DNA of 64,000 nucleotides, taken from the NCBI GenBank assembly GCA_026391655.1, contig JAPLDR010000062.1:20284-84283 (forward strand), in the 5' to 3' direction. The translations under genes were made by a program, and so were the position numbers. The notes under the pieces were generated by a model. The model was not told the origin of the DNA. It saw only the letters and a program-made list of their open reading frames with translations, and searched no databases. Below are positions 7,219-16,500 of the stretch, one piece after another (position 1 is the first letter of the stretch; each line of letters opens with the position of its first letter). The DNA is from Bacteroidia bacterium (GTDB taxonomy: Bacteria; Bacteroidota; Bacteroidia; Bacteroidales; Prolixibacteraceae).

Positions 7219-8124
7219 ATGGGAAAACATCACCACAATCACCCAATTGTAACGGGAAAGAACCTGGTTCTTCCGATTCTTCTTAACATGGGAATTACTC
7301 TCGCCCAGATTATTGGAGGATTGGTATCCGGAAGTATGGCGCTTCTATCGGATGCAGCGCACAACTTTAGCGACGTTCTTGCCTTGATATTTAGTTATAT
7401 AGCGGCAAAATTATCAGGTCGTGAAAGAACACTTAAGCAAACCTTCGGCTATAAACGAGCCGGGATTTTTGCAGCTTTCATCAACGCTGCAACCCTGATG
7501 ATTATTGCAACCGTACTGGTGCAAGAGGCTATTGAGCGGTTAATGAACCCAAGACCAATTGAAGGTGAAATCGTGATTTACCTTGCTGCATTAGGTATTC
7601 TTTTTAACGGAGCCAGCGCACTTCTGGTTAAAAAAGGGGCAAAGTCAGATATCAATATGCGCTCTGCTTATCTGCACCTGTTTACCGATATGCTCACTTC
7701 TATTGCCGTATTTATCGGCGGTTTTGCCATCAGCTACCTCGGTTGGTTCTGGGTCGATGGCGTATTGACGATTGCTATTTCTATCTATTTAATTTATAGT
7801 AGTTGGGAAATATTTTACGAATCAATGAGAATTTTCATGCAATTTACCCCAACGCAGATCAATATTGAAGAGATTGCTGCCGAAATCACACTTATTCAGG
7901 GTGTTAAAAATGTTCATCATGTTCATGCGTGGAAACTCGACGATCATGAGATGATGTTTGAAGCCCATCTTGATCTCGAAGAAGATTATACAATCTCACA
8001 TTTTGAACTTATCCTGGAAAAAGTGAGCACAACGCTTCATCGCTTTGATATTCACCATTTCAATATTCAGCCCGAATGGGTTCGTGATGATGAAAAGGCG
8101 TTAATTAACAGATTGGATCACTGA
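7219..8124 (+). CDS. Cation diffusion facilitator (CDF/ZitB-like) metal exporter
   Basis: This 301-aa inner-membrane antiporter exports divalent metals (Zn, possibly Cd/Co) in exchange for protons. It has a His-rich N-terminus (MGKHHHNHP), six hydrophobic segments, the metal-site motifs SDAAHNFSDV and HLFTDMLTS, each with HxxxD, and a cytosolic C-terminal domain with HHVHAWKLDDHEMMFEAH and a His-rich FDIHHFNIQPE segment. These place it in the CzcD/ZitB subfamily. A duplicated dyad in its promoter suggests metal regulation. It is a single gene followed by the repeat array. Confidence 0.94.
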   Translation: MGKHHHNHPIVTGKNLVLPILLNMGITLAQIIGGLVSGSMALLSDAAHNFSDVLALIFSYIAAKLSGRERTLKQTFGYKRAGIFAAFINAATLMIIATVLVQEAIERLMNPRPIEGEIVIYLAALGILFNGASALLVKKGAKSDINMRSAYLHLFTDMLTSIAVFIGGFAISYLGWFWVDGVLTIAISIYLIYSSWEIFYESMRIFMQFTPTQINIEEIAAEITLIQGVKNVHHVHAWKLDDHEMMFEAHLDLEEDYTISHFELILEKVSTTLHRFDIHHFNIQPEWVRDDEKALINRLDH

Positions 8125-8169
8125 AGATTACTTTTGATGGCTGAAGGAGGCTCGGATAATAATCAAGAA

Positions 8170-8664
8170 TCCGGGTTTAAGCATCGATTTCGAAGCAAAA
8201 AGGTTCGAAACCGAGATTATAAACATTAATATAAGTGCAAAAAGCATAAATATATGTGTAAAATATATAATCAAAGGCATAAAAAGCATAAATATATGTG
8301 TAAAATATATAATCAAAGGCATAAAAAGCATTGGATATAGTGATAAATACATAAATATTGGTGCTAAATGCGTCAACATTGGTGTATAAAGAATCGGCAT
8401 CGTTGTAAATAGAGACAAAACTAGAGTTAGAAGCATCGACATCGAAGTAAAAAGATTCGAAACCGATGTTATAAGAACTAATATTGGTGTTAAAAGCATC
8501 AAAATATGTGTAAAATACATAAAAAGTAGCGTTAAACACATCAAATAAAGTGCATAATACATCATATATTGTTTAAGTAACATAAACATATGTGTAAAAT
8601 ATATAATTATTGGTGATAAATTCTTCAATCTTTGTGTATAAAGCATCGGCTTCGTTGCAAAAAG
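8170..8664. repeat. Degenerate tandem array with 21-bp period
   Basis: About 23 imperfect units of 21 bp share an AAAAGCAT...AT..GTGT-like pattern. Within it a 42-bp double unit is repeated exactly at 8239-8280 and 8281-8322, with a partial third copy. The plus frame starting at 8180 reads as heptads such as SIDFEAK, SINICVK, YIIKGIK and SIDIEVK, interrupted by several TAA codons. Two minus-strand frames stay open (8128-8646 and 8177-8539) only because the repeat excludes stops. I see no start site or domain and do not call a gene. It fills the 8125-8735 gap. Confidence 0.85.
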
Positions 8665-8735: not shown

Positions 8736-9347
8736 ATGAGTAATTTTGACAATGTGGCCCGGACATGGGACGAAAATCCTGTTCATCTGGAGCGCTCGAT
8801 GGCGATTGCCTCGAAAATGGAGAAAATGCTTCCACTCAGTAATCAAATGAAGGCGCTTGAATTCGGGGCCGGAACCGGCATTTTAAGTTTTCTACTCAGC
8901 GAAAAGTTGAATCAGATCGTGATGATGGACAGCTCTGCAGAGATGGTGCGGGTGATGGAAGAGAAGATTTTCAATCAAAGGGTCACCAACCTTTTTCCAC
9001 TATGGTTTAACCTCGGGAATGACTTGCCTGATCAATCATTCAATCTGATATTTAGTCAGATGGTTTTGCATCATATATCCGATATTCCGTCCATCTTTGG
9101 AAAATTCTGCCACATGCTTTTACCCGGGGGTTTCCTGGCCATTGCCGATCTTTATCCCGAAGATGGCTCTTTTCATGGTGCAGGTTTTGATGGTCATTTA
9201 GGATTCGATCCGGAGAAACTTAAGGTACTGCTTCAGGAGGTTGGTTTCAAAAATGTTTTTTTTGAATGGTGCTTTTCGATGTTAAAAGATACAACTGATG
9301 TCAGCTATAAATCATTCCCCATCTTTCTGATTACCGCTTCTAAATAA
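8736..9347 (+). CDS. Class I SAM-dependent methyltransferase
   Basis: This 203-aa cytosolic methyltransferase of the Methyltransf_11/25 type has the SAM-binding motif I ALEFGAGTGILSFLL, an acidic motif II VMMDSSAEMVRVMEEK, and a later LPDQSFNLIFSQMVLHHISDI segment typical of UbiE-like enzymes. The N-terminus ARTWDENPVHLERS is common in small-molecule methyltransferases of anaerobes. The substrate is unknown. The metallo-beta-lactamase gene begins 7 bp after its stop, so the two are probably co-transcribed. Confidence 0.9.
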   Translation: MSNFDNVARTWDENPVHLERSMAIASKMEKMLPLSNQMKALEFGAGTGILSFLLSEKLNQIVMMDSSAEMVRVMEEKIFNQRVTNLFPLWFNLGNDLPDQSFNLIFSQMVLHHISDIPSIFGKFCHMLLPGGFLAIADLYPEDGSFHGAGFDGHLGFDPEKLKVLLQEVGFKNVFFEWCFSMLKDTTDVSYKSFPIFLITASK

Positions 9348-9354
9348 TCAATAA

Positions 9355-10190
9355 ATGAGAGTCGTCGTACTGATCGACAATAATCCCGATCCCGAAGGGA
9401 AATTTCTAACCGAACATGGGAATAGCATCTACTTCGAAGCTGATGGCTTAAAATGGCTGTTCGATGTGGGTGCATCACCCGATTTCGGGATCAATGCCAG
9501 GGCAATGGAGATTGATATTGCTGATATTGATTTTCTGGTTCTTTCGCACGCTCATCGCGACCACACTGGCGGACTGGAGTACTTTCTCCGAAAGAATAAA
9601 AAAGTACGTGTTGTAATGGCTCCTCTTAGCTGCGGCCAATTGTTCGTTTCTTACCGAAAACAGATTCACCACGATATAACGATCAATCATGAAATTGTGA
9701 CAGCCTTTGCCGACATGACTGTTGCTTGTCCCCAAATGTTACCTTGATCCGAAATATCCCGAAGATTGATCCGCTACCCAAGGCCAATAGTTTACTTTTT
9801 CAGACTGACTGTAAGGTGGAACGCGCCGACGATTTCCGGCATGAAATTGTGCTGGCAGTCAAAACTGCGGAAGGTTTGGTGCTCTTTTCGGGTTGTTCGC
9901 ATCACGGCATACTCAATATTTTAAGAGCCTCTTCCCAAGCTTTTGATGGGGAGAAACTAATTGCTACCATTGGCGGAACCCATTTGCCGGACAGCGACGC
10001 ATATGATCGGTTTGAAACGATGGAGGAGATCACCGATATGGCAAATACGATTGTTCGGCAATATCCTGGAATGAGGCTGATTACGGGGCATTGCACGGGA
10101 AAACAAGCGCAGCAACAGTTTTCAAAGATACTATCCAATCGTTTTGACCTTTTCCACAGTGGTGCAACTTATTATTTCGACGAAAAATAA
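9355..10190 (+). pseudogene. MBL-fold metallohydrolase, frameshifted
   Basis: Two overlapping frames make one metallo-beta-lactamase-fold protein of about 278 aa. The first (9355-9747) carries the metal-binding motif SHAHRDHTGG after VLIDNNPDPEGKFLTEHG. The second (from about 9726 to 10190) carries the rest: FSGCSHHGILNIL, IGGTHL and LITGHCTGKQA. The break is at the CCCC run 9730-9733: one more C would join them as ...TVACPPNVTL. The family resembles archaeal/bacterial dihydropteroate-linked MBL proteins (AtsA/RomA-like); the substrate is unknown. It may be a real frameshift or a homopolymer sequencing error. The length and motifs are otherwise intact. Confidence 0.8.
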
Positions 10191-13540: not shown

Positions 13541-16500
13541 ATGAGTACCAGGAAGCCAAAATCTACAGAACCCATAAAAGAAAAAACATACACTCCAACT
13601 GATAGTATTCAGTTTCCAATTGTCGGCCTCGGCGCCTCGGCGGGCGGGCTAGAAGCATTGGAGCAGTTCTTTGGTAATATGCCCAAAGACAACGGTATGG
13701 CTTTTGTCGTGATCCAGCACCTTGACCCGACCCACGTTGGCATTATGCCCGAGTTGTTGCAACGAATTACCCTAATGAAGGTGATACAGGCCAGCGACCG
13801 CCTTAAAGTGAAACCAAACTGTGTATATGTGATACCGCCCAATAAAAGCATGTCGCTGCTGAAAGGCGCACTGTATTTGTTCGATCCGGTTGAATCGCGT
13901 GGCCTGCGTTTACCTATCGATATTTTCTTCCGTTCGTTAGCCGACGACAGACAGGAAAAAAGCATTGGTATTATCCTTTCGGGCATGGGCTCCGACGGCA
14001 GCCTGGGACTGAAAGCCATTAAAGAAAAAAATGGCATAGCGGTGGTGCAGGAACCCGCCTCGGCCAAATTCGACAGCATGCCCCGTAGTGCCATGGCAGC
14101 CGTAAACGCTGATATTGTGGCACCCGCAGATGAATTGCCCGCCAGACTGATCTCTTTCCTGAAATTTATTCCGGCGGTAAAAACAGATACTGATACAGAG
14201 ATAAAAAACAAAAGCAACCTCGATAAAATTATCATCCTGCTTCGCGAACAATCGGGTCACGACTTTTCGTTGTATAAGAAAAACACTTTGTTTCGGCGTA
14301 TCGAAAGGCGCAAGGGCATTCATCAGATAGATAATATACATAGCTATGTGCGCTTTTTACAGGAAAATCCAAAAGAGGTAGAGCTGCTTTTCAAAGAGTT
14401 GCTGATTGGTGTTACGAGTTTTTTTCGCGACATTCCTGTGTGGAAAATACTCAAAGACACTATTCTTCCTGACCTGATGAATGAATTGCCTGATGGACAT
14501 GTGCTGCGTGCCTGGGTGACAGGGTGCTCGACCGGAGAAGAGGCCTATTCATTGGCGATTGTTTTTAAAGAGGCGCTTGAAAAAATTAAAAAGCACAAAA
14601 AACTAACATTACAGGTATTCGCCACTGATCTCGACCTTGATGCCATTGAGAAAGCCCGTAAAGGTGTTTTCTCCGATAAAATTGCTGTCGATGTATCGCC
14701 CGAACGCCTCAGCCGGTTTTTTACGGTTGATACTGAAGGCTTTCGCGTGAATACTGCCATACGCGAAATGGTCGTGTTTGCTCCTCAGAATGTGATCAAA
14801 GACCCGCCATTTACCAAGCTTGATATACTGACGTGCCGCAATATGCTGATATACATGGAGCCCGAATTACAGCGAAAACTGATGACTCTGTTTAGTTACA
14901 GCCTTAACCCCGGCGGAATTTTGTTGCTTGGCACGGCAGAAACACTTGGAGGTTATAATGAAGGGTTTAAAGAGCTTGATGCCAAATTGAAAATCTATAA
15001 ACGTTCTCCATCTGTTCAATCGCCTCAATTAATTGATTTTCCAAGCTCTTTTTACAATCGTAAAGCAGTGACACCTGAAAAAAAAACACCTCCGAAAATG
15101 ATTGAAAACATCCAGACCCTTGCAGATCAGATTTTGCTTCAGCGCTTCGCCCCTGCCAGTGTGCTTGTAAATGACCAGGGCGATATCGTTTATATTACGG
15201 GTCGTACAGGGAAATACCTTGAACCCGTAGCTGGTAAAGCAAACTGGAATATTTATGCCATGGCACGTGATGGATTGAGCCACGAACTGCCGGGCGCTTT
15301 CCGCAAAGCAATGCAAAACTTTGACCCTGTAATTATACGAAATATTAGAATAGGAAGTAACGGAGGGACTCATTTTGTGGATGTTACAGTTCAACGCATC
15401 GAAACCCCCGATTCGATAAAAGGTATGATTATGGTCGTTTTTACTGATGTGCCATCCATGGTTCTACATGATACAGTGACACTGAAAACAGGATCACGAA
15501 GTTCATCGGGGCGGCAGAAGGAACTGGAGATTGAACTGCAACGAAGTAATGAAGAGATTCAAAGCATCCGCGAAGAGATGCAAACATCGCAGGAAGAGCT
15601 GAAATCGACCAACGAGGAACTTCAATCGACAAATGAAGAATTGCAATCAACAAACGAAGAGCTTACCACCTCCAAAGAAGAGATGCAGAGTCTGAACGAG
15701 GAACTGCAAACGGTTAATATTGAACTACAAAGTAAGGTGTCTGATTTTGTACGCGCGAACGATGATATGAAAAATCTGCTCAACAGTACCGAGGTCGCTA
15801 CCCTTTTCCTCGACAAGGATTTGAACATTCGAAGGTTTACCGACCAGGTAGTCAAAATATTTAAATTGCGTAACGTCGATATCGGCAGGCCTTTCACTGA
15901 TCTGGTCAACGATTTGCAATACCCTGAAATAGAGAATCATGCCCTGCAAGTAATAAAAAATCTGATATCTATTGAAACGGCCATTGAAACACACGACAAA
16001 AGGTGGTTTAATATCCGTATTATGCCCTACCGTACACTCGATGATCGTATCGATGGACTGGTTATCACATTTGCCGACATCAGCGTATCCAAAAAGATGG
16101 AAACTGAACTGAAAGAATCAAATGACTCGCTAAAGACAAAGGAGAAGGCATTGGCCATTTCGGAGACCAGTTATCGTCGCCTCTTTGAATCGTCGAAAGA
16201 TGGGATTCTTATTCTCGATGCAAAAACCGGAAAGATTAAGGATGTGAATCCATTTTTGATTGATTTGTTGGGCTACTCACAAGAACAATTCATTGAAAAA
16301 ACAATCTGGGAAATTGGATTCTTTAAAGATATAGTCGCTAATCAAGATAAATTTTTAGAATTACAGCAAAAGGAATTTGTGCGGTATGAAGATTTACCCC
16401 TTGAAACGATTGACGGGCGAAAGATCAATGTTGAGTTCGTCAGCAGTGTTTATATGGTAGATAAAAAGAAGGTAATTCAGTGTAATATTCGTGACATCAC

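Follow-up and report, generated by a model that had tools for sequence, protein, structure and literature searches.

In the 64,000-nucleotide stretch of Bacteroidia DNA analysed here (the window), the intergenic region behind a gene for a cation-efflux transporter contains a degenerate tandem array with a step of 21 bp. We think it probable that this array is a non-coding intergenic minisatellite of a class typical of its lineage, with a pitch of two helical turns (21 bp corresponds to two turns of B-DNA). With the same probability, the class is defined by its step, not by its sequence, its members being intergenic, non-coding, poor in indels and subject to fast turnover. The readings given here and below overlap, and the confidence placed in them does not sum to one.

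The original prediction had put the array at about 23 units of 21 bp, and 23 exact, gap-free units were indeed found at 8180-8662, with a mean divergence from the consensus of 0.32. The repeat statistics were obtained against 1000 dinucleotide shuffles, with the duplicated 42-bp segment taken out beforehand. Identity at lag 21 was 0.539, as opposed to 0.308±0.021 in shuffles (z=11), and reached about 0.54 at lags 42 and 63; the maximum of any shuffle at any lag from 5 to 69 was 0.40. The autocorrelation revealed no 7-bp sub-period, and units often matched better at 42 bp than at 21 bp. The predicted exact duplication of a 42-bp double unit was confirmed, since 8239-8280 and 8281-8322 are identical letter for letter, and the repeat continues to 8331. 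This duplication is the most recent expansion event of the array and, as the sole pointer of its kind, hints at copy-number variation between strains. The units, longer than about 9 bp, stand head to tail outside genes, which places the array among minisatellites. All five predicted plus-strand heptads (SIDFEAK, RFETEII, SINICVK, SIDIEVK and RFETDVI) are present. The pair said to recur at both ends (SID.E.K/RFETD) is found, as SID.E.K/RFET.., at 8180, where the array begins, and again midway, at 8432, but not at the 3′ end, where the last unit reads SIGFVAK.

Table 1. Features of the array region in the window and 21-bp arrays of the same genome.
Feature	Position	Strand	Remarks
Upstream gene, cation-efflux (CDF) transporter	7219..8124	+	
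Open minus-strand frame across array, 172 aa	8128..8646	-	pN/pS 1.0 between units; judged no gene
Predicted 10-pair hairpin (AGGCUCGGAU/AUCCGGGUUU)	8148..8178	+	between efflux stop codon and array; fold prediction
Second open minus-strand ORF, 120 aa	8177-8539	-	
Degenerate tandem array	8180..8662	+	23 units of exactly 21 bp, gap-free; consensus about AGCATCAATATTGGTGTAAAA
Unit pair SIDFEAK-RFETEII (plus frame)	8180..8221	+	CG steps enriched
Perfect 42-bp double-unit duplication	8239..8331	+	2.2 copies; TRF, 100%
Second, similar unit pair SIDIEVK-RFETDVI	8432..8473	+	
Downstream gene, class I SAM methyltransferase	8736..9347	+	
Own-genome 21-bp arrays: window array, L079 (CGTAGTTGGAACTATCACAAC), L087 (TAATGCGAATTAGCATTACCA), L110 (TGAATCTTCTATATGGTGGTA), L077, L072			

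The array starts 55 bp after the stop codon of the cation-efflux gene and ends 73 bp before the methyltransferase gene; gene boundaries, here and at the other arrays, were taken from ORF length, not from annotation. The efflux protein has its close relatives in MAGs designated Mariniphaga sp. and Prolixibacteraceae, and the host is therefore an uncultured member of that group. The hairpin predicted in front of the array has no U run and may possibly be an old transcript end; no terminator-like site was listed at 8148..8178 or otherwise seen behind the efflux gene. Further downstream, a metallo-hydrolase-like gene (9355-10190) is split into two overlapping frames (9355-9747 and 9726-10190), the result of a frameshift or an assembly error.

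The heptads had suggested a decayed repeat-protein gene. The plus frame holds four in-frame TAA stops; three of them replace terminal AAA codons as predicted, whereas the fourth stands mid-unit (unit 8537). Likewise, the minus frames, expected to stay open, are largely open in two cases out of three, but the third has 16-17 stops. Stop-free frames occur in such arrays because the consensus unit is itself stop-free. Arrays of this type are an annotation hazard, as they yield long open frames (172-251 aa) on several strands, which gene calling may record as hypothetical proteins. In the plus frame, pairwise pN/pS between units was 0.70-0.75, within the neutral-star and column-order nulls, and no frame of the array gave a pN/pS clearly below either null. 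The entropies of the three plus-frame codon positions were 0.98, 1.06 and 1.24, so that the third position was somewhat more variable, though not significantly (p=0.26). With the identical method, a coding control, the 21-bp coiled-coil stretch of the window at 15500-15751, gave a pN/pS of 0.59 (p=0.00), and a second coding control (L114) was missed; with one of two controls detected, the power of the test is limited. No protein relatives of the heptads were found in 18 genus genomes, 395 phylum genomes, GTDB contigs, viral contigs, plasmids, Pfam or PDB, and none of the relatives searched carried an intact homologous ORF. The other 21-bp arrays of the same genome are likewise without a coherent coding frame. 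Arrays of 21 and 63 bp in L068, L114 and at 15.5 kb of the window look like coding repeats and were left out of the count given below. On these sequence grounds, and with the limited power of the pN/pS test in mind, we conclude that the window array is in all likelihood non-coding.

To place the array in context, arrays of any period were sought in 1.21 Mb (about a quarter) of its own genome and in 0.2-0.4 Mb of each of four relatives. Arrays outside long ORFs were counted by their fundamental period; detection was by constant period, which favours indel-free arrays. In the host genome, 21 bp was the fundamental period in 6 of 15 intergenic arrays (Table 1), and in the five sampled genomes pooled in 9 of 38, with one such array contributed by G011 and two by G023. 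By comparison, periods of 20, 22, 23, 24 and 25 bp accounted for 0, 1, 1, 1 and 1 arrays, respectively, and 19 bp for 0-1. G028 and G019, of the same family, yielded none with this period in 400 and 195 kb, respectively, and in 400 kb of E. coli K-12 none of three arrays had it. A model of the units based on sequence alone retrieved 21-bp arrays at other loci of the family (in G525, G017 and G007, the last behind nuoN with the unit AGCATTGATCTAAATGCTCAA), and a class-wide model search added two from other families, in G608 and G589. Besides the host, other species of its genus and of its family carry 21-bp arrays. Weak matches of the sequence-only model in L023-L030, L179-L183 and L185-L188 were without a 21-bp array and were dropped, and a 42/84-bp signal in L164 (G019) seems to come from a tandem pair of tRNA-like genes and not from an array. 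Most 21-bp arrays start 0-55 bp past a stop codon, and their unit sequences are mostly unrelated between loci; the two G023 arrays (L174, 2651-3112, and L173, 843-1073) share both their unit (TTCAGTCTTCAACGGCTACAA) and their tail (ATTGACTTA.TGGCAAGGG).

Several individual loci deserve mention. The second half of the G023 array in L174 is apparently in reverse orientation. The G589 array (L184, 1571-1822) is a clean one, with 12 nearly identical units of AGGAACAAAATGGTCTGACAA, and is perhaps a recently formed member of the class. Between convergent genes in L077 (13003-13170, G000:C130), five TTACACTTT motifs follow one another in 21-bp steps; after them comes a hairpin, long and perfect (GTGGCCGGGTGACT...AGTCACCCGGCCAC), as is typical of terminators. 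In L072 (5830-5960, G000:C130), the superperiod is 42 bp, the inverted arms are long (GGTTCGAT...ATCGAAC and GGTTCCA...TGGAAC), and adjacent units show an apparent compensatory C-G/G-C swap. G028 contains dispersed intergenic elements (L124, 18090-18175; L126, 7929-8015; L137, 2562-2670; L120, 1570-1630; L132, 12050-12110) in which 11-bp tandem units form seemingly inverted arms (TTACCCTTTGG...CCAAAGGGTAA; TTTGTCCATGG), possibly a MITE-like family of another genus.

Phase constancy was analysed by a leave-one-out profile scan. Each array showed a single phase, with out-of-phase matches at background, and no phase shift was detected in 14 arrays comprising 154 units and 936 differences from consensus, an outcome towards which detection by constant period is biased, though arrays broken by indels would still appear as adjacent segments. 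The content of arrays differed between species at every locus compared: the Mariniphaga/Prolixibacteraceae relatives examined had no 21-bp array next to the orthologous efflux gene, the other genus members lacked one at the L079 locus, and of the relatives compared at nuoN only G007 had one. Behind the orthologous efflux gene of G001 (YR4_bin-0611; L041/L235), the intergenic space is filled by ca. 40 heptamers (CCAGNNG/CCAACAG), and a trace of a 7-bp period is seen at the same place in G009.

In the window array, the unit is able to fold into a small stem (columns i+j=19), in which 71% of cells pair and the plus strand is the one where G-U is favoured. The paired fraction, 0.69, exceeded the column-order null when G-U pairs were allowed (p=0.001) and showed no excess with Watson-Crick pairs only (p=0.42); it follows that plus-strand RNA is favoured, if the signal is real. 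The minimum free energy of the folded array RNA gave z -2.45 against column-order shuffles and z -4.5 against dinucleotide shuffles. L087 also self-paired above the column-order null (p=0.015, z -3.5 and -4.8). Among arrays found independently of the window model, self-complementarity was weak (Fisher p 0.01 with G-U pairs and 0.11 without), and co-variation inside stems was slight. A hairpin string as a general property of the arrays was rejected: despite fold z values of -4.5 to -5.9 and hand-picked compensations, column-order nulls show most arrays to be no more self-complementary than chance would make any 21-bp repeat. Two dyads 10.5 bp apart arise automatically from one dyad and a 21-bp translation and are thus no evidence. 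No Rfam covariance model matched at gathering score, and a single chance-like match (E=0.029) lay outside the array. The arrays analysed have no 10.5-bp AT harmonic, and neither a motif common to all 21-bp arrays nor a binding protein was found. Of the two original ideas, a two-helical-turn array fits better than a relic gene, since intergenic arrays of unrelated sequence in the genome and the family repeat with this very step of 21 bp; protein binding or bending may go with it, though neither an AT harmonic nor a common motif speaks for either. The window array may have a role in DNA or RNA structure.

How do other explanations fare against the same data? If the array were the remnant of a gene that encoded a heptad-repeat protein with units of the SINIGVK type, its step would equal seven codons and its stops would have been acquired later. 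Throughout the 21-bp class the step is divisible by three, several arrays contain a frame that is almost free of stops and in which hydrophobic residues alternate, and the slight excess of variability at third positions, for all its p value, points the same way. Yet no frame shows a purifying signal (in a test that missed one of two coding controls), no relative has an open version, and frame-preserving indels (3 or 6 bp), tolerable in a gene, are absent; together with the TAA stops and the lack of protein relatives, this makes the relic gene quite improbable. Somewhat better, though still rather unlikely, is an array that works as transcript structure, the efflux mRNA ending in a string of small hairpins that would block exonucleases or aid termination. 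The G-U preference of the stem on the gene's own strand, the fold energies of the window array, the stop codon that precedes most arrays and the lack of any other visible intrinsic terminator agree with such a string, but the other arrays do not beat the column-order null, an exact 21-base step is unnecessary for hairpins, and in L022 and L110 the favoured strand is not that of the gene.

A selectively neutral satellite, produced by slippage or unequal recombination at tolerant intergenic sites, with a step set by the duplication machinery and not by function, is a plausible account, even if we lean slightly against it. It sits well with the species-specific loci, the unrelated units, the fresh 42-bp duplication and the quite different 7-bp array that follows the orthologous efflux gene in G001. 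Decay should, however, bring indels, of which none was seen beside 936 differences (in a search that favours constant period), and generic slippage is not expected to prefer one step sharply. Very improbable is a mobile element of the BrickBuilt kind (a MITE minisatellite), which is also intergenic and degenerate, has units of similar length and comes from the same phylum (PMC4596501), and which the shared units and tail of the two G023 arrays resemble. No terminal inverted repeats flank the window array, the longest exact inverted match between its flanks being 7 bp, and neither the array nor its flanks have a second copy in the genome, where other matches are 15-33 bp long and at chance level.

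Under the minisatellite reading that we prefer, arrays would arise when 21 or 42 bp are tandemly duplicated at gene ends, and would then accumulate point mutations and be subject to fast turnover. The exact step would be kept since phase matters in DNA, with a protein or a superhelical arrangement reading every second turn; alternatively, it could stem from a duplication process that itself has a 21-bp step. The window-array unit, self-pairing on the plus RNA strand, might in addition serve transcript structure at the 3′ end. That Prolixibacteraceae, perhaps with other Bacteroidia, possess a cellular system which builds or keeps arrays of this pitch and of arbitrary sequence at gene ends, be it a DNA-coating protein whose repeat spans two turns or a copying process whose step is fixed at 21 bp, is a speculative and, on present data, unlikely extension. 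Bacterial minisatellites are usually viewed either as coding repeats or as a single sequence family in each genome; here, the step length recurs and not the sequence, with many unrelated intergenic arrays of one genome at exactly 21 bp. Should a complete census bear this out, the step would have to reflect a structural or mechanistic rule, be it of the DNA helix, a bound protein or the duplication process. Such a rule could be tested in a cultured relative.

Among known systems, readings of the TIGR-Tas, DGR and retron type were rejected, as neither conserved repeats separated by variable spacers nor A-biased substitution is present. REP/BIME elements are intergenic, short, hairpin-capable and often located 3′ of genes; REPs share one conserved sequence genome-wide, whereas 21-bp units vary by locus. 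Plasmid iterons and the ParR and omega centromere arrays are phased direct repeats with steps of 7-22 bp that are read by DNA-binding proteins; they have well-conserved units, located on replicons next to the genes of these proteins. The window array resembles them in its phased direct repeats, but conserved units or an adjoining binding-protein gene were not seen here. Intergenic heptamers such as TAACTGA, for which a regulatory role has been proposed, occur in Beggiatoaceae, Cyanobacteria and some Bacteroidetes, as a fixed 7-bp sequence that, in the main genome studied, lies mostly just upstream of start codons (PMC4679880). They too form short intergenic tandem arrays, and 21 is three heptamers, but the window array is without a 7-bp sub-period. 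The 464/PgRS element of Porphyromonas gingivalis consists of 41-nt tandem repeats with terminal inverted repeats and is present in many copies (PMC4596501); it is likewise an intergenic tandem repeat of a Bacteroidota genome, and differs in its unit length, its ends and its copy number. BrickBuilt, from the same species and the nearest published relative of the 21-bp class, has 23 nt units in up to 22.8 copies, one unit family at 19 loci, a leader and a tail with IS5-like inverted ends, and at most 11% mismatch and 0-6% indels per element (PMC4596501). It shares with the window array its phylum, its intergenic position, imperfect tandem units of similar length, predicted stem-loops and the lack of an Rfam match; the window array is set apart by the absence of such ends and of visible indels, by a divergence of about 32%, by units that are mostly particular to each locus, and by its 21-bp step.
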